A stretch of 64,000 nucleotides of DNA from contig CABMCJ010000004.1 of the NCBI GenBank assembly GCA_902384585.1, forward strand, positions 248,001-312,000, read 5' to 3'. Below the pieces are notes generated by a model that worked only from the letters and a program-made list of their open reading frames with translations, was not told the origin of the DNA and ran no database searches. Of the stretch, positions 69-40,947 are shown piece after piece. The translations under genes were made by a program, and so were the position numbers. The stretch comes from Candidatus Anstonella stagnisolia (GTDB taxonomy: Archaea > Micrarchaeota > Micrarchaeia > Anstonellales > Anstonellaceae). Each line of letters starts with the position of its first letter. Positions within the stretch are counted from its first letter, which is position 1.

Positions 69-386
69 CTAAACTTTCTTGAGAATTGCGCTTAAGTCTG
101 CCTCTTTTAGACCCACATGCGGCTTTGCATCCGCCCGCACTACAACTTTCCCATCCTTGAAAAGCAAAAGAGTTGGGATTACTTCTACCTTATATTCGTC
201 CCAGAGGGGGTTCTCGTCCTCGTCCACCTGCAGTTTTAGGAGGGGAACGCTTGCCTTTCCTTCATAACTTTCGAAAATTGGCAGGAATGCGCGGCAGAAG
301 GGGCACCATGAGGCATAGAAAAGCACGAGAAGCTTGCCTTTCTTGCTTTTTTCCTTTAGCTCTCCAAGCGTTGTAATATTGTCCAT
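69..386 (-). CDS. trx: thioredoxin-fold thiol-disulfide protein
   Basis: A 105-residue cytoplasmic thioredoxin-like protein with the active-site motif YASWCPFC followed by the fold's usual cis-proline segment (VIPTLLLFKDGK). The two cysteines of CPFC would cycle between dithiol and disulfide to reduce partner proteins. A longer frame reaches 428, but the ATG at 386 is preferred because a TATA-like box lies 27 nt upstream (405-413), as expected for a leaderless transcript. The next gene, cut by the window edge, follows 8 nt later. CPFC differs from the classical CGPC, so the protein may be a glutaredoxin-like or disulfide-isomerase-like variant. The assignment to the fold is secure; the specific partner is unknown. 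Confidence 0.85.
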   Translation of the reverse strand: MDNITTLGELKEKSKKGKLLVLFYASWCPFCRAFLPIFESYEGKASVPLLKLQVDEDENPLWDEYKVEVIPTLLLFKDGKVVVRADAKPHVGLKEADLSAILKKV

Positions 387-404
387 ATTTTGAATTTGAA
401 GGGC

Positions 405-413
405 AAATTTATA
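405..413 (-). promoter_or_regulatory. TATA-like box of the thioredoxin gene
   Basis: Read on the minus strand the sequence is TATAAATTT, with its first base 27 nt before the chosen ATG at 386. This spacing places transcription initiation close to the start codon, so the mRNA is probably leaderless. Confidence 0.5.
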
Positions 414-430
414 TTCCTTGCACCCCATTT

Positions 431-443
431 ATCACTACGTTAT
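431..443. promoter_or_regulatory. one-mismatch copy of the ATAAC-N3-GTTAT palindrome
   Basis: The sequence ATCAC-TAC-GTTAT differs by one base from the perfect palindrome seen at 11163, 30716 and 40346. It lies between the divergent thioredoxin and ABC-exporter genes, and its right half runs into a TATA-like TTATAATAT before the exporter start at 461. A regulator bound here would cover the exporter promoter. A single mismatch and no statistics make this weaker than the other three sites. Confidence 0.4.
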
Positions 444-460
444 AATATGCGGTGGGAAAC

Positions 461-1426
461 ATGAGCCTGATTATACAAAACCTTACAAAAAGATACGGGG
501 AGCTTACTGCTGTGGACAACCTGAATATTGAGGTTGAGGCAGGGGAGATATTCGGGCTCCTGGGGCCAAACGGGGCAGGGAAGACCACCACGCTCTCCAT
601 GCTGTGCTGCATAATTGAGCCGACTTCGGGAACTGCGAAAATAAACGGCTTTGACATCAAAACGCAGAAATCGCAGGTGAGAAAATCCATTGGAATCGTG
701 TTCCAGCAGCCTTCTGTGGATGATTTGCTCACTGCAAAGGAAAACCTTGAATTGCACTGCATGCTGTACGGGGTGGAGCAGGGAGTGCGCCAAAAAAGGA
801 TAGATGAGGCATTTTCCCTTGTGGAGCTTGAGGACAGGGAGAATGATTTGGTAAAGACTTATTCCGGTGGCATGAGAAAGCGCCTTGAAATTGCGCGTGC
901 GCTCATACACCGCCCGTCCGTGCTCTTCCTTGATGAGCCCACTACAGGGCTTGATCCGCAAACAAGGGAGCACATGTGGAGCTACATAGAGAGGCTTGCT
1001 GCAGAAGTGCAGATGACTGTTGTGCTCACAACACATTACATGGAGGAGGCGGACGCGCTATCAGACAGGGTGTGCATAATAGACCATGGGAAAAGGATTG
1101 CGCTTGAAACCCCTGAGAAACTTAAAGCGCAAATGGGCGGGGACGTTGTGTACGTGCAGGCACAGAAAATTGACGAGAAGAAAGTGAAATCGCTTTCCTT
1201 TGTGCGCAGCATAAAAAAGCAGGACGGGAAGTTCGCAATCACAATGAAGGATGCGGGAAAGAACTTGCAGAAGCTGCTTGGGAAAATCGGGTGCGTGGAA
1301 AGCGTGGATGTGCACCCCGCAAGCCTCAACGACGTTTTCATAAAATACACAGGAAAGAGCATAAGGGAAGAGGAAGCTGCAGGGGATTACTGGACGCGCG
1401 TGATGAACTCGGAGAAGAAAGAGTAG
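461..1426 (+). CDS. ABC-2 type exporter, ATP-binding subunit (DrrA/CcmA-like)
   Basis: The ATPase half of an export ABC transporter, with a P-loop GPNGAGKT near residue 40, the signature YSGGMRKRLEIARAL, Walker B VLFLDEPTTGLDPQ and the switch histidine in TTHYMEEAD. The C-terminal hundred residues match the small extra domain usual in DrrA-type ATPases. A GTG at 452 is possible, but the ATG at 461 has a GGTG ribosome binding site about 6 nt before it. The permease follows after 5 nt, so the pair forms one exporter. The substrate cannot be told from sequence; relatives export drugs, antibiotics or polysaccharides. The promoter overlaps a palindrome shared with redox genes. Confidence 0.9.
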   Translation: MSLIIQNLTKRYGELTAVDNLNIEVEAGEIFGLLGPNGAGKTTTLSMLCCIIEPTSGTAKINGFDIKTQKSQVRKSIGIVFQQPSVDDLLTAKENLELHCMLYGVEQGVRQKRIDEAFSLVELEDRENDLVKTYSGGMRKRLEIARALIHRPSVLFLDEPTTGLDPQTREHMWSYIERLAAEVQMTVVLTTHYMEEADALSDRVCIIDHGKRIALETPEKLKAQMGGDVVYVQAQKIDEKKVKSLSFVRSIKKQDGKFAITMKDAGKNLQKLLGKIGCVESVDVHPASLNDVFIKYTGKSIREEEAAGDYWTRVMNSEKKE

Positions 1427-5580: not shown

Positions 5581-5631
5581 AGGGGAGATATCGGAGTTAT
5601 ACTTAAAAACTTGCCGTGCGTCCCTTACGCA

Positions 5632-5895: not shown

Positions 5896-6953
5896 GAATT
5901 GGGAAAAATATCCTTCACGCACGCGCAAAAAGGTTCTTTTCAAACATGAACGCTTCAAAAGCAAAAGCGGACTTTGCGCTTTTTTACAATACGGACAGCA
6001 CAAGCAGCACGGATGCGAACTTTTCGTATTTTTCAGGAACTGAAATAGACGGGAGCGTGCTGCTTCTTAGGAAAAATGAGACTGGGGTGCTTCTTACGTC
6101 CGGAATGAACTATGAGAAGGCGCGGATTCTTTCTCCTTATCCTGTTGTGAAATTTGCACGCGCAAAAGCGTATGAGGAAATAAGAAAGCTTGCGGGAAGG
6201 GGAAAACTTGTTTGTGGCTTGGACTTGCAGGCAGTGAGCGCTGCAAGGTATTTCAGTGCAAAAAGAAAACTAAAAGTGAAGACAGTTGATGTTTCAGAGG
6301 CTGCTTCTGCTGCACGTGGGACAAAGGATGAAGAAGAAATTATGAAAATAAAAAAAGCTGTGAAGATTGGAAAGGAAATTCTTGACGGTATAGACCCGTT
6401 TGAGTATGAGACGGAACTGGAAGTTTCAAAGGCACTGAAAATTATGGCGCTTGAGAAAGGCTGCGATATCTCTTTCCCTCCAATTGTTGCTTTTGGGGAA
6501 AACTCACGCCTGCCGCACCATGAGCCGAGCGCAAAGAAAATCGGGAAGGGAATTGTGCTCATAGATTTCGGGGTTAAGTACGAAGGATATTGCAGCGACC
6601 TCTCGCGCTGCTATTTCAAGGGAGAGGCAAAAAAAGAAAGAGAAGCATATGCAAAAATGCAGGAAATGTACGAAGACATAGTTAGGAAGTTGGAAAAATG
6701 CAGAACTGGAATGGAAATTGCAAAGCTTGCGGATAATGTTTACAAGAGGCACAAGCAGCCTGCTCTTATACACTGCATCGGGCATGGGATTGGGCTGGAA
6801 GTGCACGAGTATCCGCATTTGGGGCAGAAATCAAAGAATAAAGTAGGGGAGAACACAGTGCTTGCGATTGAGCCGGGCGCGTATTTTGAGAAATTCGGGG
6901 TAAGGTATGAGAATGAGGTTTTGATTTCGGGAAAGAAGGCGAGGACTCTTTAG
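5892..6953 (+). CDS. pepQ: Xaa-Pro aminopeptidase/dipeptidase (M24 metallopeptidase)
   Basis: A cytoplasmic metallopeptidase of the pita-bread fold that removes residues preceding proline. All five expected metal ligands are visible: Asp in VLIDFGVKYEGYCSD (two aspartates), His in IHCIGHGIGLEVHEYP, Glu in AIEPGAY and Glu in RYENEV. The N-terminal 120 residues form the creatinase-like domain. The length of 353 residues is normal. The gene begins at an ATG that overlaps the stop of the membrane-protein gene. A methyltransferase gene follows after 10 nt. Confidence 0.9.
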   Translation: MRIGKNILHARAKRFFSNMNASKAKADFALFYNTDSTSSTDANFSYFSGTEIDGSVLLLRKNETGVLLTSGMNYEKARILSPYPVVKFARAKAYEEIRKLAGRGKLVCGLDLQAVSAARYFSAKRKLKVKTVDVSEAASAARGTKDEEEIMKIKKAVKIGKEILDGIDPFEYETELEVSKALKIMALEKGCDISFPPIVAFGENSRLPHHEPSAKKIGKGIVLIDFGVKYEGYCSDLSRCYFKGEAKKEREAYAKMQEMYEDIVRKLEKCRTGMEIAKLADNVYKRHKQPALIHCIGHGIGLEVHEYPHLGQKSKNKVGENTVLAIEPGAYFEKFGVRYENEVLISGKKARTL

Positions 6954-10074: not shown

Positions 10075-11061
10075 TTACACACCGCGGTGCGAAAGCCTCT
10101 GGTTGGGAGGGATGTCCTTTATGTCCAGGCTGTGCATTGGCTCGCCAAGGCCTTCGGACACTGATGCAAGCACGTTTGCGTCCGCGTAGTTTGCAACTGC
10201 GTTCACGATTGCTTCTGCGCGCCTTTCAGGGTCTGAGGACTTGAAAATGCCGCTTCCTACGAACACCCCGTCGCATCCAAGCTGCATGCACAGGGAGGCG
10301 TCTGCAGGGGTTGCGATTCCCCCAGCCGCAAAATTCACTACTGGGAGCCTTCCGAGCTTTGCGGTTGTAATCACAAGTTCGTATGGGACGCGCATTTCCT
10401 TTGCAAGGTTCGCGTATTCTATGTTGCGCTTGTTTGCAAGGGATGCGATTGAGGAATTTATGGAGCGGATGTGCCGCACCGCCTCAACGATGTTGCCCGT
10501 GCCTGCCTCGCCTTTTGTGCGCATCATTGCGGCGCCTTCGTGAATCCGGCGGAGCGCCTCTCCTAAATTGCGCGCGCCGCACACAAAGGGAACAGTAAAA
10601 TTGTGCTTGTTGATGTGGAACTGCTCATCCGCTGGGGTGAGCACTTCGCTTTCGTCTATGAAATCAACGTTAAGTGCCTGCAAAATTTGAGCCTCTGCAA
10701 AATGCCCTATGCGGCATTTTGCCATCACAGGGATGCTCACTGCGGAAATGATGTCCTTTATCATTGTGGGGTCGGACATGCGCGCAACCCCGCCCTCCTT
10801 TCTTATGTCGGAGGGCACGCGCTCAAGCGCCATCACCGCGCATGCGCCCGCATCCTCTGCGATTCGCGCCTGCGCTGAGTTCACGACGTCCATTATCACG
10901 CCGCCCTTTAGCATTTGCGCAAGGCCGGACTTTACCTCAAATGAACCGAATACCGGGGAGGTGGGCTGTTCGCGCATGGGCTGCGCTGCCGCACGATGCA
11001 TTGGAACGCGTGGAGCGGGCTTTTGCTTTGAAGGCTTCTTCTTTGCCATGAACTTTGCCAT
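10075..11061 (-). CDS. pdxS: pyridoxal 5'-phosphate synthase, lyase subunit
   Basis: Builds PLP from ribose 5-phosphate, glyceraldehyde 3-phosphate and the ammonia supplied by PdxT. The (beta/alpha)8 barrel carries the Schiff-base lysine in [10 protein letters not shown], the second lysine in [12 protein letters not shown], the signature [17 protein letters not shown], and [24 protein letters not shown]. At 328 residues it is longer than usual (about 295) owing to a basic, proline-rich N-terminal extension of about 40 residues. ATG 11061 and ATG 11049 are both plausible; 11061 suits the TATA-like sequence about 30 nt upstream. It is divergent from the suf regulator. Confidence 0.95.
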
Positions 11062-11147
11062 AAACACCGGGTTTAATAATGGGCTTATAATATAAATGCT
11101 TTCGCTTTAAGGCAGGAACACAGGGGCGAAAGAAAGGTATTTTAAAT

Positions 11148-11175
11148 ATAACGTTGTTAAAGATAACGTTGTTAT
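11148..11175 (+). promoter_or_regulatory. tandem palindromic operators at the suf regulator promoter
   Basis: ATAACGTTGTTA occurs twice, at 11148-11159 and 11163-11174, with a 15-bp period. With the next base the second copy is a perfect palindrome ATAAC-GTT-GTTAT (11163-11175); the first has one mismatch at its last base. They lie just after a TATA-like TTTAAATATA (11142-11150) and before GAGGTG and the ATG at 11194, so a bound protein would block initiation. The regulator encoded at 11194 is the obvious candidate ligand. Confidence 0.65.
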
Positions 11176-11193: not shown

Positions 11194-11547
11194 ATGGCAG
11201 TGTTTTGTGAAATAGTAGTCGCGCATGCGCTCCCGGCAGTGCGCTCGGCGCTTGCGACGGAACTTGTGAAGGGGAGGAAGGTTACGCAGCTTTACGCGTG
11301 CGAGCTCCTTGACATCACGCAGCCCGCGATTTCCCAGTACATAAAGGGGAAAAGGGGGAAGAACCTGCAGAAGATAACGGGCAACAAGAAAGTTTCAGCC
11401 GCAATAAAGGGGCTTGCGGACAGGCTCCTTAAGAGCAAGAACCCGCACAAGACGCTCAACGACGGCATATGCGAGATATGCAAGCTCATGCGCGCGCAGA
11501 AAATGCTCGACGACACGCACTATCCTTACAAATACTGCATAAAGTAA
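11194..11547 (+). CDS. XRE-type helix-turn-helix regulator with cysteine pair
   Basis: A 117-residue transcription factor of the archaeal group that starts [13 protein letters not shown] and ends with a CxxC pair (COG2522-like, from memory). The helix-turn-helix lies at about residues 27-55 ([20 protein letters not shown]). Cysteines at 5, 93 and 96 are those I recall as conserved in the group and could bind an Fe-S cluster or zinc; C36 and C115 are extra. It sits directly before sufC (13 nt) and carries two palindromes in its own promoter. An autoregulated sensor of Fe-S status is the simplest reading. ATG 11194 has GAGGTGG 5 nt before it. Confidence 0.8.
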
Positions 11548-11560
11548 GCGGGTGCTGGCG

Positions 11561-12292
11561 ATGGAGCTTGAGGCGAGAAACCTTCACGTTAGCGTAGATG
11601 GGAAAGAGATACTCAAAGGGCTGGGCCTCAGGGTAAAGCAGGGGCAGGTGCACGCGATAATGGGGCCAAACGGCTCAGGGAAAAGCACGCTTTCAAACGC
11701 GATAATGGGAAACCCCAAATACAAGGTGGAGAGCGGTGAAATACTTCTTGATGGAAAAAGCATACTTGAGATGCCAACTGATGAGAGGTCACGGGCGGGG
11801 ATTTTCCTGTCTTTTCAGTACCCATTTGAGGTAAGCGGGGTAACGCTCACGAATTTCCTGCGCACCGCGATAAACCAGCGGAGGGAAACGCCCATCTCAA
11901 GCATGGAATTCAACTCCGAGCTTGAGAAGCACATGAAGCTTTTGAAAATGAAAAAGGAATTTGCATATAGGTATTTGAACGAAGGGTTTTCAGGCGGGGA
12001 GAAAAAGCGGTGCGAGATACTTCAGATGTCCATGCTAAAGCCCAAATTCGCGATACTTGATGAGACGGACTCCGGGCTTGACATTGATGCGCTCAAGACT
12101 GTTGCAAAGGGGATTGAGAAATTGAAAAATCCCTTCCTTGGGATAGTGATAATCACGCATTATCACAGGATACTCAAGTATGTGAAGCCGGACTTTGTGC
12201 ACGTGATGGTGGATGGGAGGATTGTGAAGTCCGGCGGCGCAAAGCTTGCAAGCGAGCTTGAGAAAACAGGGTATGAGAAGCTTGTGAAATAA
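11561..12292 (+). CDS. sufC: SUF Fe-S assembly ATPase
   Basis: The ABC-type ATPase of the SufBCD Fe-S scaffold complex. It shows Walker [10 protein letters not shown], the SufC-specific signature [14 protein letters not shown] and Walker [17 protein letters not shown]. The length of 243 residues is normal. ATG 11561 follows GGTG by 6 nt; the in-frame GTG at 11552 is less likely. The gene follows the regulator and precedes sufB by 15 nt. Confidence 0.95.
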
Positions 12293-12307
12293 TTGAGGCT
12301 AGTAAAA

Positions 12308-13720
12308 ATGGGCACCAACATAAACGCGCTTGAAAAGGGATTTGTAAAGAAAAGGGCGAGTGGGAACGTTGCCGCGCCTTATGCAATGCGAGTGGAGCAG
12401 GGGCTTACGGAAGAGCATATTGCAGAGATATCGCACTTGAAGGGCGAGCCGGATTGGATGCTGCAAAAAAGGCTTGAGAGTTTTCGGATATACAGGAAAA
12501 AGCCCATGCCTACTTGGGGAGCGGACCTGAGCGCGCTTGACATTGAGAACATCTGGCCGTACATAAAGCCAGAGGGGCAGAAGACAAACAAATGGGAGGA
12601 AGTCCCTTCTTACATTAAGGACACGTTTGACAAGCTGGGAATTCCGGAAGCTGAAAAGAAATTCCTTGCTGGGGTAGGGGCGATGTACGACAGCGAGACT
12701 AGGTATTTCAAGATAAGAAAGGACCTTGAGGCGATGGGCGTGATATTTGTTGATACCGACACTGCGGTGCAGGAATACCCTGAACTGGTGAAAGAGTATT
12801 TCATGACAAAGTGCGTGCCTGCCGCGGACAACAAGTTCTCTGCGCTGCACGGCGCTCTTTGGAGCGGCGGGAGTTTTGTGTACGTTCCAAAGGGCGTGAA
12901 AGTCCCGATGCCGTTGCAGATTTATTTCATGATGAACTATCCGGGCGAGGGGCAGTTTGAGCACACGCTCATAATCGCAGAAGAGGGAAGCGAAATAAAT
13001 TACATTGAGGGGTGCTCTGCGCCAAGGTATGACACGCGCTCGGTGCACTCCGCGGTTGTTGAAATATTTGCGAAAAAGGGAAGCCGGGTGAGGTACACCT
13101 CAATACAGAACTGGAGCAAGAATGTTTACAATTTGAATACGAAGCGGGCGATTGTGTACGAGGATGCGCTCATGGAATGGGTGGGCGGGACGCTTGGGAG
13201 CGGAAAAACAATGCTTTACCCATGCAGCATGCTTGTTGGGAAAGGCGCGCGGGCTGAGCACCTTAACATTACGTTTGCAAGCGCGGGGCAGGAAAAGGAC
13301 AACGGTGCAAAGGTATTCCACCTTGCGCCAAACACAACGAGCATTGTGGTTGCAAAAAGCATTGCGAAAGACGGCGGGTGGAACAAATATCGTGGGCTGC
13401 TTAAAATCGCAAAAGGCGCAGTTGGTGCAAAGGCAAACTCCCGCTGCGAGGCGCTTCTCATAGATGACAAGTCACGCTCGGACACATATCCTGAAATGGA
13501 CGTTAAGGAAAGCCGCGTGAACATCGGGCATGAGGCGATTGCGAGCCGGATATCGCAGGAACAGCTCTTTTATCTTCAAAGCCGCGGGCTTACAGAACAG
13601 CAGGCAGTGAATCTCATAATAAGCGGATTCATTGAGCCAATTACGAAATTGCTGCCACTTGAATATGCGGTTGAGCTGAACAAACTGATAGAACTTGAAA
13701 TGGAAGGCTCTGTAGGTTGA
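12308..13720 (+). CDS. sufB: SUF Fe-S scaffold protein SufB
   Basis: The core beta-helical scaffold on which nascent Fe-S clusters form together with SufC and SufD. Conserved SufB segments include GVIFVDTDTAVQEYPELVKE, SALHGALWSGGSFVYVPKGV, INYIEGCSAP and the C-terminal SRISQEQLFYLQSRGLTEQQ. The length of 470 residues is normal. ATG 12308 is preferred over a TTG at 12293 because it gives the normal N-terminus, with GAGG about 10 nt upstream. The region after its stop contains a decayed copy of its own 3' end. Confidence 0.95.
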   Translation: MGTNINALEKGFVKKRASGNVAAPYAMRVEQGLTEEHIAEISHLKGEPDWMLQKRLESFRIYRKKPMPTWGADLSALDIENIWPYIKPEGQKTNKWEEVPSYIKDTFDKLGIPEAEKKFLAGVGAMYDSETRYFKIRKDLEAMGVIFVDTDTAVQEYPELVKEYFMTKCVPAADNKFSALHGALWSGGSFVYVPKGVKVPMPLQIYFMMNYPGEGQFEHTLIIAEEGSEINYIEGCSAPRYDTRSVHSAVVEIFAKKGSRVRYTSIQNWSKNVYNLNTKRAIVYEDALMEWVGGTLGSGKTMLYPCSMLVGKGARAEHLNITFASAGQEKDNGAKVFHLAPNTTSIVVAKSIAKDGGWNKYRGLLKIAKGAVGAKANSRCEALLIDDKSRSDTYPEMDVKESRVNIGHEAIASRISQEQLFYLQSRGLTEQQAVNLIISGFIEPITKLLPLEYAVELNKLIELEMEGSVG

Positions 13721-13769
13721 AAAAATATGGAGGCGAGAGGAGCGGATTGAAGGCTCTTTGGATTGAAAA
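13703..13769. repeat. imperfect direct repeat at the sufB-sufD junction
   Basis: A 21-nt segment at 13703-13723, covering the sufB stop codon, recurs at 13749-13769 with 18 of 21 bases identical. Each copy is followed shortly by ATGGAGG. The period is 46 bp. It looks like a tandem duplication of the sufB end together with the translation-start region of sufD, now decaying. Confidence 0.55.
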
Positions 13770-13783
13770 GAAAAGTTGAGATT

Positions 13784-14866
13784 ATGGAGGATTGGATTGC
13801 AAAGAAAAGAGCGGAACTTGAGGCTGCGGCACATTCAATGCCGGCGGAAAATGCGGAAAAGAAATTTGAGGAGAGGCTTCTTGCGGCAATCGGGAAGGAA
13901 AATGCGGGAGGAAAAGTTACTTTTGTGCACAGAGGCAAGAATGTAAAAATAGTTGCGCTTGAAAATGCGCTTTCTTCCGATTCTGGCGCACGCTCTATTT
14001 TTGCATCCGCTCTGTGGAAAACAAGGCTTGCGCACTTTGCTGCTGCGCGCTTTCAGGACGGGCTTTTCGTGGATGCCTCAAAGAATGCGGAAATTGAAAT
14101 TGAAGTTAATGCAAAGAATGGCGGGAACTTTTATGTGCTTCTCCTTGTGGAAAAGGATGCGGGAATGAATGCGATTATACGCATTAAGGGCGCAAAGGAA
14201 AGCATGGGCACTATAGAGGCGGTGCTTGGGGAGAATGCAAATGCGAACATAAGCGTGCTCTCTGCATACGCGGAAAATTCAACGCATTTTTTGCAAACGT
14301 GCGCAAACGTGAAGAGGGACGCGCACCTGCAATGGTTTGTTGCAAGCTTTGGGGGGGACGGAAGCGCGCATGCGAAAAACAGCCTTGTTGAGGAGGGCGC
14401 CAATTGCAGGAATTATGGCATATTTTTCCCAACTGGAAAGGAGAGGATGGTTGTGAGGACTGGCACAAGGCATGCTGCAATTGCAACTTTTGGGGACATA
14501 CTTACAAAAAGCGCGCTTGCGCACGAATCCGTGCTGGACTATAAGGGAGGCGTGCGCATAGAAAGGAATGCAGTGAAAAGCGAATCGGACTTGAATTCGA
14601 GGAACATTATGCTTTCCGACCGCTGCCATGTGGACGCGATTCCGTACCTTGAGATTGAAACGAACGATGTGAAGGCATCGCACGGAACTAGCGTTGGGCA
14701 GCTTGATGAGGATGAGGTTTTTTACCTAAAAAGCAGGGGAATCGGGGACAAGGAGGCGCAAAAGCTTGTTGCAATGGGCTTTTTTGCGAAAATGCTGCAG
14801 AACTGCGCGGGAAAGGCAAAAGAAGAAATTGAGAAAGAGATAGAAAGGTGCATAGATGGCAGTTAA
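13784..14866 (+). CDS. sufD: SUF Fe-S assembly protein SufD
   Basis: A SufB paralogue that pairs with SufB and SufC. The beta-helix core includes HLQWFVASFGGDG and the family C-terminus ATG-independent signature EIETNDVKASHGTSVGQLDE followed by VFYLKSRGIGDKEAQKLV. The length of 360 residues is short compared with bacterial SufD (about 420) but fits archaeal versions. ATG 13784 is chosen over an upstream TTG. It overlaps sufS by 11 nt. Confidence 0.9.
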   Translation: MEDWIAKKRAELEAAAHSMPAENAEKKFEERLLAAIGKENAGGKVTFVHRGKNVKIVALENALSSDSGARSIFASALWKTRLAHFAAARFQDGLFVDASKNAEIEIEVNAKNGGNFYVLLLVEKDAGMNAIIRIKGAKESMGTIEAVLGENANANISVLSAYAENSTHFLQTCANVKRDAHLQWFVASFGGDGSAHAKNSLVEEGANCRNYGIFFPTGKERMVVRTGTRHAAIATFGDILTKSALAHESVLDYKGGVRIERNAVKSESDLNSRNIMLSDRCHVDAIPYLEIETNDVKASHGTSVGQLDEDEVFYLKSRGIGDKEAQKLVAMGFFAKMLQNCAGKAKEEIEKEIERCIDGS

Positions 14867-16073
14867 AATCAACCCAAAGAGAATCCGGAAGGACTTTCCG
14901 ATTTTTTCAAGGGAGCGAAAGCTCGCGTATTTGGACAATGCGGCTACTACGCAAAAGCCGAAATGCGTAATAGATGCCGAGAAGAATTTCTATGGGAGCA
15001 CGAATGCGAACGTGCACCGCGGGCTGTACAAAATTTCCGAACGCGCAACAGAAATGTACGAGAAGGCGCACGAAAAAACTGCTGAATTTGTTGGGGCAGG
15101 CGGAATGCAGGAAATTATTTTCACGCGGAACGCGACTGAGTCACTTAATGTTGTTGCGGGAAGCATTGGAAAAACGCTGAAGGCAGGGGACGAGGTCGTG
15201 CTCACGCTCATGGAGCACCACTCAAATATTGTGCCCTGGCAGCAGTTGCAGAGGAAGGGAGTGAAATTAAGGTACGTGGGATTTGGGAAAGACGGGAAGC
15301 TGGATTACAATGAATTTGAGCAGTGCATAGGAAAAAATACCAAAGTTGTTTCGTTTGTGCATGCATCAAACGTGCTTGGGAGCATTAATGATGCGAAAAA
15401 GATTTGCAAAATTGCGCATGAGAATGGGGCAATTGCGGTTGTGGATGGGGCGCAGTCTGTGCCACACATGGAAGTGGATGTAAAGAAAATGGACTGCGAC
15501 TTCCTTGCGTTTTCCGCGCACAAGATGCTGGGGCCCATGGGAATAGGGATTCTTTACGGGAAGGAAGAGGCGCTTTTGAAGATGGAACCTTTCCTGTATG
15601 GGGGCGACATGATAAAGAGCGTCGGGAAATTTGAGGCAAGCTGGAATACGCTTCCTTGGAAATTTGAGGCGGGCACCCCGAACGTTGCGGGCGCGATTGG
15701 ATTTTCTGCCGCGATTGGGTATTTGGAAAATATTGGAATGCAAAATGTGCGAAAGCATGAAGAGGAAATTACGGAATACGCACTGCGAAAACTTTCGGAG
15801 ATTGGCGGGCTTGAAATTTATGGGAGCAGGAATGCGCAGGATAGGCTGGGCGTAATTTCTTTCAATGTAGAGGGATTGCACCCGCACGACGTTGCGGCGC
15901 TGCTTGATGAGGAAGGGATTGCGATAAGGGCAGGGCATGCGTGCGCGCAGCCATTGCTTGCGCAGCTTGGAGTGAATGCTGTATGCAGGGCGAGCTTCTA
16001 TGTATATAATACTAAAGAGGAAGTGGACAGGCTGTGCAAAGCTATTGGGAAATGCAAGAGCATTTTGATGTGA
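14856..16073 (+). CDS. sufS: cysteine desulfurase SufS
   Basis: A PLP enzyme that takes sulfur from cysteine and delivers it as persulfide for Fe-S assembly. The PLP lysine lies in FLAFSAHKMLGPMGIG, other cofactor residues in LDNAATTQKP and TRNATESLN, and the persulfide cysteine in IRAGHACAQPLL. The length of 405 residues is normal for the SufS (class II) group. It overlaps the sufD end by 11 nt. PLP synthase genes lie just upstream of the operon in divergent orientation, which would supply its cofactor. Confidence 0.95.
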   Translation: MAVKINPKRIRKDFPIFSRERKLAYLDNAATTQKPKCVIDAEKNFYGSTNANVHRGLYKISERATEMYEKAHEKTAEFVGAGGMQEIIFTRNATESLNVVAGSIGKTLKAGDEVVLTLMEHHSNIVPWQQLQRKGVKLRYVGFGKDGKLDYNEFEQCIGKNTKVVSFVHASNVLGSINDAKKICKIAHENGAIAVVDGAQSVPHMEVDVKKMDCDFLAFSAHKMLGPMGIGILYGKEEALLKMEPFLYGGDMIKSVGKFEASWNTLPWKFEAGTPNVAGAIGFSAAIGYLENIGMQNVRKHEEEITEYALRKLSEIGGLEIYGSRNAQDRLGVISFNVEGLHPHDVAALLDEEGIAIRAGHACAQPLLAQLGVNAVCRASFYVYNTKEEVDRLCKAIGKCKSILM

Positions 16074-16078
16074 TTCCT

Positions 16079-16468
16079 ATGGACAGGCAGGCATATGTTG
16101 AAGAAGTGATGGACCACTACAAGAACCCGAGGGGCAAAGGGAAGCTTGAGCATGCGGACTTTTGCGCAAAGGACGAAAACCCGCTTTGCGGGGATGAGAT
16201 TTCAATATGTGCAAAGGTGAAGGCGGGAAAACTTCAGGAAATAAAATTTGACGGGCATGGGTGCGCGATTTGCATTGCGTCAAGTTCCATGCTTATGGAA
16301 AAGGCAACTGGGATGAAAATGGAAAAAGCGCTCAAGATAAAGAGGGAAGATGTGCTTTCTAATTTTGGGGAAATAAGCCCTGTGCGCACAAAGTGCGCGC
16401 TTCTTTCGCTCAAAGTGCTAAAGCTTGGGATTTGCAGCTTTTTGGGCAAAAAAGCGCCGCTTGAATAG
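16079..16468 (+). CDS. sufU: SufU/IscU-type Fe-S scaffold or sulfur-transfer protein
   Basis: A 129-residue member of the IscU/SufU family. The three conserved cysteines are visible in NPLCGDE, GHGCAICIASSSM and VRTKCALL, and the N-terminus VMDHYKNPRG is typical. In SufU these residues bind zinc and accept sulfur from SufS; in IscU they hold a cluster. Its place directly after sufS favours the SufU role. ATG 16079 starts 5 nt after the sufS stop. Confidence 0.9.
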   Translation: MDRQAYVEEVMDHYKNPRGKGKLEHADFCAKDENPLCGDEISICAKVKAGKLQEIKFDGHGCAICIASSSMLMEKATGMKMEKALKIKREDVLSNFGEISPVRTKCALLSLKVLKLGICSFLGKKAPLE

Positions 16469-16587: not shown

Positions 16588-16932
16588 ATGAACAAAGTAT
16601 TGGTAGTTTTTGCATTTGTGCTTGTTGCAGGGATGCTTTTTGCGCAAAGCCCGCTTAGCGGCGTTTCAAACGCGCTCAGCCAGTTGTGTGGCGGGATTAA
16701 GGGGCTTCTTCCTGTTGCTGCGATGCTCATGATAGTGCTTGCGGGCGTGATATACGCTGCAGGGCAGATTATGGGTGCTGAAACAAGGGCACGCGCAAAC
16801 GTATGGGCAACTGCTTGCCTTACTGGTGCGCTCATTGCGGTATTGATTGCGGCGATTGCGCCTGCAGTGCTCAACATGATTTACAATCCGACTGGTGCAA
16901 ATGAGTCTAGGATAGCGGCGGATATCTGTTAA
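16588..16932 (+). CDS. VirB2/TrbC-like small membrane protein, copy 1
   Basis: A 114-residue protein with a signal peptide (VLVVFAFVLVAGMLFAQ), a short Cys-containing segment, and two hydrophobic helices separated by a basic loop (AETRARANVWATA). This is the plan of VirB2/TrbC conjugative pilins and of the archaeal pilins related to them. The core is nearly identical in DNA and protein to the next gene, 14 nt downstream. GGGGTG precedes the ATG. No secretion ATPase or other conjugation gene lies nearby in this window, so the pilin role is inference. Confidence 0.65.
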   Translation: MNKVLVVFAFVLVAGMLFAQSPLSGVSNALSQLCGGIKGLLPVAAMLMIVLAGVIYAAGQIMGAETRARANVWATACLTGALIAVLIAAIAPAVLNMIYNPTGANESRIAADIC

Positions 16933-16946
16933 AACGGGGTGTATAG

Positions 16947-17294
16947 ATGAACAAAACGTATGTATTTCTGGCATTTGTGGTGCTCGCAGGGGCGCTCGTT
17001 GCACAAAACTCGATATTGAGCGGGACTACCGTGGCAATAAAGGAGTTGTGCAGGGGAGTGAAGGACCTTCTTCCTGTTGCTGCGATGCTCATGATAGTGC
17101 TTGCGGGAGTTATCTATGCCGCAGGGCAGATTATGGGTGCTGAAACCCGTGCAAGGGCAAACGTATGGGCAACTGCTTGCCTTACTGGTGCGCTCATTGC
17201 GGTATTGATTGCGGCAATTGCGCCACCGATGCTAACTGCGATATATGGGCAGAGCGGAGTTAGCGGCATAAACGTTGGCGTTTGCGACAACTAA
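16947..17294 (+). CDS. VirB2/TrbC-like small membrane protein, copy 2
   Basis: A 115-residue paralogue of the preceding gene. The core from LLPVAAMLMIVLAGVIYAAG to LIAVLIAAIAP is identical in protein and almost identical in DNA over about 165 bp, while the signal peptide and both termini have diverged. That contrast suggests a recent duplication with selection or gene conversion on the core. GGGGTG precedes the ATG. A T-rich terminator follows the stop. Confidence 0.65.
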   Translation: MNKTYVFLAFVVLAGALVAQNSILSGTTVAIKELCRGVKDLLPVAAMLMIVLAGVIYAAGQIMGAETRARANVWATACLTGALIAVLIAAIAPPMLTAIYGQSGVSGINVGVCDN

Positions 17295-30226: not shown

Positions 30227-30679
30227 TTAGAGGGCAGACAAAATCTCCTTTGCATGCCCTTCGGGTTTTACTTTTTCAAAGATTTTTTTCACTTTTCCCT
30301 GCGAGTCTATGAGGAAAGTCGTGCGGAAAATCCCTTCATACTCCTTTCCGTACATGCTCTTTTTGCCCCATGCACCCCATTTCCTTATTGTGGATTTTTC
30401 AATGTCTGCAAGAAGCGTGAAATTAAGCGAATATTTTGAGATGAACTTCTGGTGCGAGCCCTCATTATCCGCGCTTATGCCAAGCACGTGCACGCCTGCC
30501 TTTTTGAAATCTTCAAGCGAGTCACGAAAGCCGCATGCCTCAACAGTGCAGCCCGGGGTGTCGTCCTTGGGGTAGAAATACACTACAACCGCATGCCCGC
30601 GAAAAGAGGAGAGCCTTACGGGCTTGCCGTTTTGGTCTGGCAGTTCAAAGTCAGGTGCAGGTTCGCCTACTTTTAGCAT
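30227..30679 (-). CDS. bcp: thioredoxin-dependent peroxiredoxin (Bcp/PrxQ type)
   Basis: Reduces hydrogen peroxide and organic peroxides. The peroxidatic cysteine is in DDTPGCTVEACGFRD, with a second cysteine five residues later that matches the resolving position of atypical 2-Cys PrxQ. The length of 150 residues is normal. The ATG at 30679 has GGTGAT just before it; a TTG further up is less likely. The promoter contains the perfect palindrome ATAAC-ATA-GTTAT. Thioredoxin, a plausible reductant, is encoded at 69-386 near a similar site. Confidence 0.95.
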   Translation of the reverse strand: MLKVGEPAPDFELPDQNGKPVRLSSFRGHAVVVYFYPKDDTPGCTVEACGFRDSLEDFKKAGVHVLGISADNEGSHQKFISKYSLNFTLLADIEKSTIRKWGAWGKKSMYGKEYEGIFRTTFLIDSQGKVKKIFEKVKPEGHAKEILSAL

Positions 30680-30715
30680 AGCATCACCTATTGGCAATTA
30701 TGGCAGCAAAATTTA

Positions 30716-30728
30716 ATAACATAGTTAT
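30716..30728. promoter_or_regulatory. ATAAC-N3-GTTAT palindrome at the bcp promoter
   Basis: A perfect palindrome ATAAC-ATA-GTTAT (5-bp arms, 3-bp spacer). On the minus strand it runs directly into TAAATTTT, the likely TATA region of bcp, so a bound regulator would overlap the promoter. The same pattern is found at 11163 and 40346. Confidence 0.6.
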
Positions 30729-40345: not shown

Positions 40346-40358
40346 ATAACATCGTTAT
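40346..40358. promoter_or_regulatory. ATAAC-N3-GTTAT palindrome at the CuA lipoprotein promoter
   Basis: A perfect palindrome ATAAC-ATC-GTTAT whose right arm merges with a TATA-like TTATAAATA. The gene start is at 40396 with GAGGTGG before it. The position means a bound protein would compete with TBP. The same motif lies at the suf regulator and at bcp. Confidence 0.6.
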
Positions 40359-40395: not shown

Positions 40396-40947
40396 ATGAA
40401 ATTATTGGTCGTAATGCTTGTGGCGTCCGTGCTTCTTCTGTACGGGTGCACGCAGAACTCCGGGAACGTGCAGAATGCCATTGCTGCCGGGACCCCGGGC
40501 ACGCCAAGTGCAACTGGGCAAACCCAAAGCGGCGCGAACGGGCAGGTTGCTTCCGGAGCAGCGGGTTCAGCAGCAGGAGGGCAGCCCGACAGCGGCGTGA
40601 ATTCTGCCCCAAGCGTGCAAACTGATAACGGCACAGGCGCAGCAGGCGGAAACCCGGCTGGCGCAGGAAGCACAGTAAAGGAATTCACAGTGGAAGCAAG
40701 CGACTGGCAGTTTTCGCCCTCAACGATTACGGTGAACAAGGGGGACACCGTGAGGATAACGCTTGTGAACAAGGACGTTTCGCATGGGATTGCGGTAAGG
40801 GAATTCAACTTTAGCCTCAAGGCGGATGCGGGGCAGAGCGCAACCGGCGAGTTTGTTGCAAGCACTGCCGGGACTTACAGTTTCTTCTGCAACGTGTTCT
40901 GCGGAGAAGGGCATCGGGGCATGACTGGGACGTTGGTCGTGAAGTAG
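40396..40947 (+). CDS. lipoprotein with CuA-type cupredoxin domain
   Basis: A 183-residue exported protein: signal with lipobox (ASVLLLYGC), a Gly/Ala/Ser/Asn-rich linker to about residue 93, then a cupredoxin. The C-terminal motif C165-x3-C169-G-x2-H173-x2-M176, together with His130 in DVSHGIAV, is exactly the ligand set of the binuclear CuA centre in cytochrome oxidase subunit II. There is no transmembrane hairpin and no oxidase gene nearby. It may carry electrons or copper outside the membrane. The next two lipoprotein genes follow within 1 and about 20 nt. Confidence 0.85.
   Translation: MKLLVVMLVASVLLLYGCTQNSGNVQNAIAAGTPGTPSATGQTQSGANGQVASGAAGSAAGGQPDSGVNSAPSVQTDNGTGAAGGNPAGAGSTVKEFTVEASDWQFSPSTITVNKGDTVRITLVNKDVSHGIAVREFNFSLKADAGQSATGEFVASTAGTYSFFCNVFCGEGHRGMTGTLVVK

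Follow-up and report, generated by a model that had tools for sequence, protein, structure and literature searches.

Control of Fe-S cluster assembly in archaea is largely open, and a short gene lying immediately before a suf operon in a micrarchaeon raises the question of what its product regulates, through which DNA sequence, and in response to what signal. The window analysed was a 64-kb stretch (positions 248001-312000 of contig 4) of a host genome of 1.33 Mb in 6 contigs, and a candidate regulator of Fe-S assembly is now proposed from it. The gene in question (11194..11547, + strand) encodes an HTH protein of 117 aa, with HTH_3 weakly recognised and cysteines at C5, C93, C96 and C115. It is followed on the same strand by sufC, encoding an ABC ATPase (11552..12292, PF00005), sufB (12293..13720, PF01458), sufD (13763..14866, PF01458), the cysteine desulfurase gene sufS (14856..16073, PF00266) and the scaffold gene sufU (16034..16468, PF01592), and sufC orthologues come after the regulator in many genomes. 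Two copies of the palindrome ATAAC-N3-GTTAT occupy the regulator's own promoter, as had been claimed in an earlier note on this DNA. Copy 1, with one mismatch (ATAACGTTGTTAA, 11148..11160), overlaps the 3' end of a TATA-like element of the regulator-suf operon (TTTAAATATA, 11141-11150), and the perfect copy 2 (ATAACGTTGTTAT, 11163..11175), recovered by pattern search and by matrix, lies over the likely transcription start and has an aligned counterpart in the sister species G001. The centres of this tandem pair are 15 bp apart, a spacing that suits cooperative binding of two dimers. The divergent neighbour pdxS (10075..11067, - strand, PF01680) shares the intergenic region and has the same arrangement relative to the regulator in G001; its own TATA is about 50 bp from the operators, and it is probably not under their control. 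Behind the suf operon, two adjacent small membrane proteins (16588-16932 and 16947-17294) share a near-identical core of ~60 residues, which suggests a recent duplication or gene conversion.

Pattern search of the window located perfect palindromes at 11163-11175, 30716-30728 and 40346-40358 and one-mismatch copies at 11148-11160 and 431-443, the five sites that the earlier note had listed, together with two more one-mismatch copies, at 5588 and 61244, that are both intragenic. When up to 2 mismatches were allowed, 26 matches were counted, compared with 13.4 +/- 3.5 in dinucleotide shuffles. The whole-genome comparison with chance for which the note had called gave a divided outcome: there were 4 perfect copies and 0 of a reversed control pattern, whereas copies with one mismatch were rarer than those of the control (23 vs 61). 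Because of the latter count, raw numbers are weak evidence alone and were dropped as proof; the case that the palindrome exceeds chance is made instead by its position, its conservation and its link to the regulator. All 4 perfect copies are intergenic and at promoters, none being inside a gene, which is the reverse of the pattern that the note had named as telling against its idea, a motif as common within genes as in promoters. Among genomes lacking a regulator of the TQ type described below, 16 of 27 palindrome copies are inside genes. The fourth perfect copy is 28 kb before the window, in the divergent promoter between nitroreductase-CcdA and MsrB-MsrA genes (assigned by Pfam). The four perfect sites all fall within 68 kb, a grouping that was dismissed because one-mismatch sites at genes for FTR1 and AhpC are on other contigs.

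Promoters of homologous regulators tie the palindrome to the protein. Exact palindromes of three types occur in 40 of 110 regulator upstream regions, where shuffles predict 0.075 and downstream controls contain 1 in 214; with at most one mismatch, they occur in 68 of 110, with 2.5 expected and 7 in 214 control stretches. Their usual place is a short distance, a few bases, downstream of a TATA box. In ten N4-type genomes, 8 of the 13 exact matches to TTAAC-N4-GTTAA fall in the regulator's own promoter, and in G098, where the regulator is second in its operon, the site leads the operon, before thiI (L211). Among regulators with a site, a recognition helix with TQ goes with ATAAC-N3-GTTAT (12:0), one with TP, TE, TD or TS with TTAAC-N4-GTTAA (29:1), and one with AP, in methanogens, with TTCAC-N4-GTGAA (20:3). 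Fisher tests of this covariation gave 1.2e-9 and 1.7e-10, p-values that overstate it because the shared ancestry of the homologues is uncorrected, though its direction is uniform. The helix of the window protein reads TQPAISQY, and its operator is exactly the type predicted for TQ. Exact sites stand to reversed controls as 33:18 in genomes with a TQ-type regulator and as 78:228 in others (p 1e-7), the former count taking in the sites before the regulators themselves and an element present three times in G098; an excess over the control is found only where a TQ-type regulator is present. A weight matrix trained solely on the TQ-type regulator promoters of other genomes scored the five named sites above every other position of the 64-kb window (ranks 1-5), with the copy at 11148-11160 first; at a threshold that just admits the lowest-scoring of them, 0.045 sites are expected in shuffles. 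A matrix that included the three spacer bases with tiny pseudocounts was overfitted and was replaced. Conservation of the site in front of distant homologues, together with its covariation with the recognition helix, strongly supports the prediction that it is the operator recognised by the 11194 protein. The triplicated element of G098 is a site-bearing stretch by a recombinase-like gene (L195, L201), found on contig 1 at 342573, 368562 and 394551 with a spacing of exactly 25,989 bp; two copies that were compared are identical over 3013 bases, and the arrangement is either a tandem repeat of ~26 kb or an assembly artefact.

Homologues of the protein were found in 21 of 99 related genomes by sequence search and in 205 of 301 genomes of the phylum by profile search. 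In a scan of named genomes with a 6-sequence alignment, 202 stretches encoded relatives, and the best 80 of these are all archaeal, from Micrarchaeota, Woesearchaeota, Pacearchaeota, Hydrothermarchaeum, Methanosarcina, Methanoregula, Methanocorpusculum, Methanomassiliicoccales, Thermoplasmata and Methanoperedens. The family, which probably corresponds to COG2522, has a common build of about 115 residues, with a cysteine near the N terminus, an HTH of the lambda-repressor kind and, towards the C terminus, C-x2-C plus further cysteines. C5, C93 and C96 are each present in 90% or more of 70 homologues and C115 is usual; the window protein has all four, and some homologues miss the N-terminal or the tail cysteine. 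An AlphaFold2 model is all-helical (pLDDT 84, pTM 0.76), with C5 at the start of the first helix, C93 and C96 in the last helix, and the tail with C115 uncertain. PF01381 (HTH_3) matches 16 of 19 homologues (best 8e-8) and the window protein at 0.0014, under the curated cut-off. Domain scans, which included the 19 homologues in Pfam, yielded no specific Pfam or NCBIfam family, and Foldseek matched the HTH core alone, with no full-length match to a solved structure in the PDB. A SUF or ISC gene lies within 1.5 kb of 65 of 111 distinct regulators. These neighbours are sufCB in Micrarchaeota and Woesearchaeota, sufS-sufU in other Micrarchaeota, and divergent iscS-iscU in Methanosarcina and Methanoregula, and the Methanosarcina homologues divergent to iscSU carry the operator TTCACAATTGTGAA or a close variant. 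Recurrence of the same protein-site pair across archaea points to a widespread switch for Fe-S homeostasis.

Outside the suf promoter, the perfect palindrome at 30716..30728 lies in the promoter of a Bcp/PrxQ-type peroxiredoxin gene (30227..30697, - strand, PF00578) and is conserved in G001 (C27:13548) despite a different upstream neighbour. The one at 40346..40358 lies between TATA-like sequences in the promoter of a cupredoxin (CuA-like) lipoprotein gene (40396..40947, + strand, PF13473). The one-mismatch operator at 431..443 (ATCACTACGTTAT), recovered by pattern search and matrix, is in the divergent promoter of genes for a DrrA-like ABC exporter ATPase (452..1426, + strand, PF00005 and PF13732) and a thioredoxin-like protein (69..428, - strand, PF00085), and G001 has the same site, ATCACTGCGTTAT, in the orthologous place. 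Both divergent neighbours, the thioredoxin orthologue included, are kept in G001, and of the exporter/thioredoxin pair put forward in the earlier note the thioredoxin half is a possible target. Beyond the window, the regulon in the host genome extends to MsrBA with nitroreductase-CcdA and, through one-mismatch sites of high matrix score, to the FTR1 iron permease and the AhpC peroxiredoxin. Further one-mismatch sites of the host are at a glyoxalase-like protein and at diphosphomevalonate decarboxylase, a gene without such a role, and an exact site on contig C30 of G001 likewise faces a gene without one. Sites in G001 are those of regulator-suf, bcp, the ABC exporter and, in degenerate form, FTR1; comparison of orthologous promoters gave no clean site at its MsrB or cupredoxin (CuA) orthologues. 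The regulon originally envisaged for Fe-S, redox and copper chemistry is thus retained for Fe-S, peroxide and thiol functions, and its copper part is weak and not supported, the perfect host cupredoxin site not being conserved in G001. Tandem one-mismatch sites 14 bp apart also occur on contig 24 of G001 (6686-6712; L050/L051), between genes for a UbiA prenyltransferase and an NAD(P)H quinone-oxidoreductase-like flavoprotein.

Among other genomes, G005 carries a perfect palindrome at FTR1 and two tandem one-mismatch copies at msrB. Four genomes have a site at FTR1, two of them (G005 and G031) in exact form and two (G000 and G001) in degenerate form. Listed by locus, trans sites outside the host precede sufB (G095, L197), superoxide dismutase (G024, L199), FTR1 (L166, L200) and Bcp (L040), as well as a weak ZIP-like transporter in G095; none was seen at the AhpC homologues of G024. 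In G098 (L212) an operator lies between the genes (519-1340 and 1626-2837) for Thi4 (thiazole synthase) and divergent IscS, hinting that thiamine or sulfur-transfer genes belong to the regulon of some lineages. In regulator-bearing genomes, iron, Fe-S or peroxide genes, read by hand and not blind, are at 8 of 23 trans sites, compared with 0 of 27 in genomes without a TQ-type regulator (p 9e-4).

The computation shows an operator, ties it to the regulator and outlines a regulon. We infer a dimeric protein, repression rather than activation, and a cluster as the signal; it is probable, in our judgment, that the 11194 protein is an autoregulated Fe-S, iron or peroxide regulator, a dimeric HTH protein exerting cluster-dependent repression on suf and on targets in trans. 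Such a dimer would bind ATAAC-N3-GTTAT at target promoters, over the TATA box or start site, with C5, C93, C96 and C115 holding an Fe-S cluster or other redox-labile metal site, and would then repress its own gene with sufCBDSU, bcp, msrBA/nitroreductase-ccdA, ahpC and the FTR1 iron permease. Once peroxide or iron shortage had removed or oxidised the cluster, these genes would be derepressed. Overlap of an operator with the TATA box or start site, seen for these sites, is the layout known from archaeal repressors. The targets serve Fe-S assembly, iron uptake and the repair of peroxide damage, which are the functions that IscR-like regulators derepress upon cluster loss. Fe-S sensing by the conserved cysteines is plausible, and because of the target set and the invariant cysteines an Fe-S-sensing repressor is the simplest reading.

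Whether the palindrome is an operator at all, and how far its regulon extends, may be weighed against two other explanations. A symmetric core-promoter element resembling a TATA box or BRE would account for AT-rich sequences that are always at TATA boxes, and yet the sequence tracks the recognition helix across archaea, a covariation that already contradicts this idea; in several genomes the palindrome is also scarcely found outside the regulator promoter, and it often stands beside a separate TATA box, not on top of it, and we give the explanation almost no credence. It is harder to dispose of the view, still improbable, that the protein binds at its own suf promoter only and that AT-rich promoter sequence produced the bcp, cupredoxin and other sites by chance. 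The one-mismatch genome count that fails to exceed its control fits this view, as do the absence of conserved cupredoxin and Msr sites in G001 and the apparently unrelated genes at most exact trans sites of other genomes (15 of 23). Opposed to it are the Bcp site kept in G001 behind a different neighbour, the recurrence of the FTR1 site, and the hand-read bias of trans sites toward iron, Fe-S and peroxide genes.

A different doubt concerns the signal, for the protein could bind the palindrome while its cysteines form a structural zinc site or a thiol/disulfide switch, so that peroxide or thiol stress, or a metal, would be sensed. A C-x2-C with two more cysteines also suits zinc, and the regulon holds Bcp, AhpC, MsrBA, SOD and thioredoxin. 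The most constant targets, however, are the SUF/ISC genes (near 65 of the 111 regulators, as above) and an iron permease, also among methanogens, obligate anaerobes for which defence against peroxide is no leading concern. This alternative is unlikely, if the least so of the three, and the Fe-S-sensing repressor is preferred.

The proposed regulator resembles IscR, whose role is general knowledge (reviewed in PMC8593673), in being autoregulated, first in or next to Fe-S assembly operons, with cysteines, an HTH and a palindromic operator, and in a regulon that reaches oxidative-stress genes. It differs in its archaeal host, its lambda-repressor/XRE-like HTH, its operator and its cysteine arrangement, and no Rrf2 match is among the Pfam families listed for the 19 homologues, HTH_3 being the common one. 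SufR of cyanobacteria and actinobacteria (e.g., Rv1460) is an Fe-S-responsive repressor encoded right before the suf operon (PMC6034842). The order of the 11194 gene and suf fits SufR, as does an operator overlapping the TATA box, whereas the protein family, the archaeal host and the operator are different, and no SufR/DeoR-type match was obtained in NCBIfam or, with the 19 homologues, in Pfam. The archaeal regulator is about half the length of SufR. With XRE/HTH_3 proteins it has in common the DNA-binding core, the PF01381 match of most homologues, to which it adds the N-terminal cysteine and the C-terminal C-x2-C...C module. By its sequence features, then, the putative regulator is IscR- or SufR-like in role, of a fold not related to that of IscR, and a member of neither family. 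In the open-access literature searched, no archaeal Fe-S assembly regulator and no paper on COG2522 were found; the papers on the ISC genes of M. acetivorans (PMC7585200), in which the genes are listed, and on methanococcal SufBC (PMC12584684) name no regulator. The regulator-operator pair is probably undescribed so far, and the finding provides three forms of the operator, a set of predicted targets and a code linking recognition helix to site.

More tentatively, and with somewhat less than even confidence, these proteins may be pan-archaeal Fe-S-sensing repressors that are related to neither IscR nor SufR and govern Fe-S assembly, iron uptake and peroxide defence by a single operator, its sequence being set by the two residues that start the recognition helix, and a viral relative could seize the host regulon. 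In the host genome bin, contig C3 (25.6 kb) is virus-like, with terminase and portal/head genes, and carries no operator-like site above 12 bits; a search of viral_contigs returned no relative of the 97-aa regulator homologue that C3 encodes (L251:5850-6140). That homologue shares the recognition helix of the regulator, lacks its cysteine module for sensing, and may be a viral mimic that acts on the regulon of the host.
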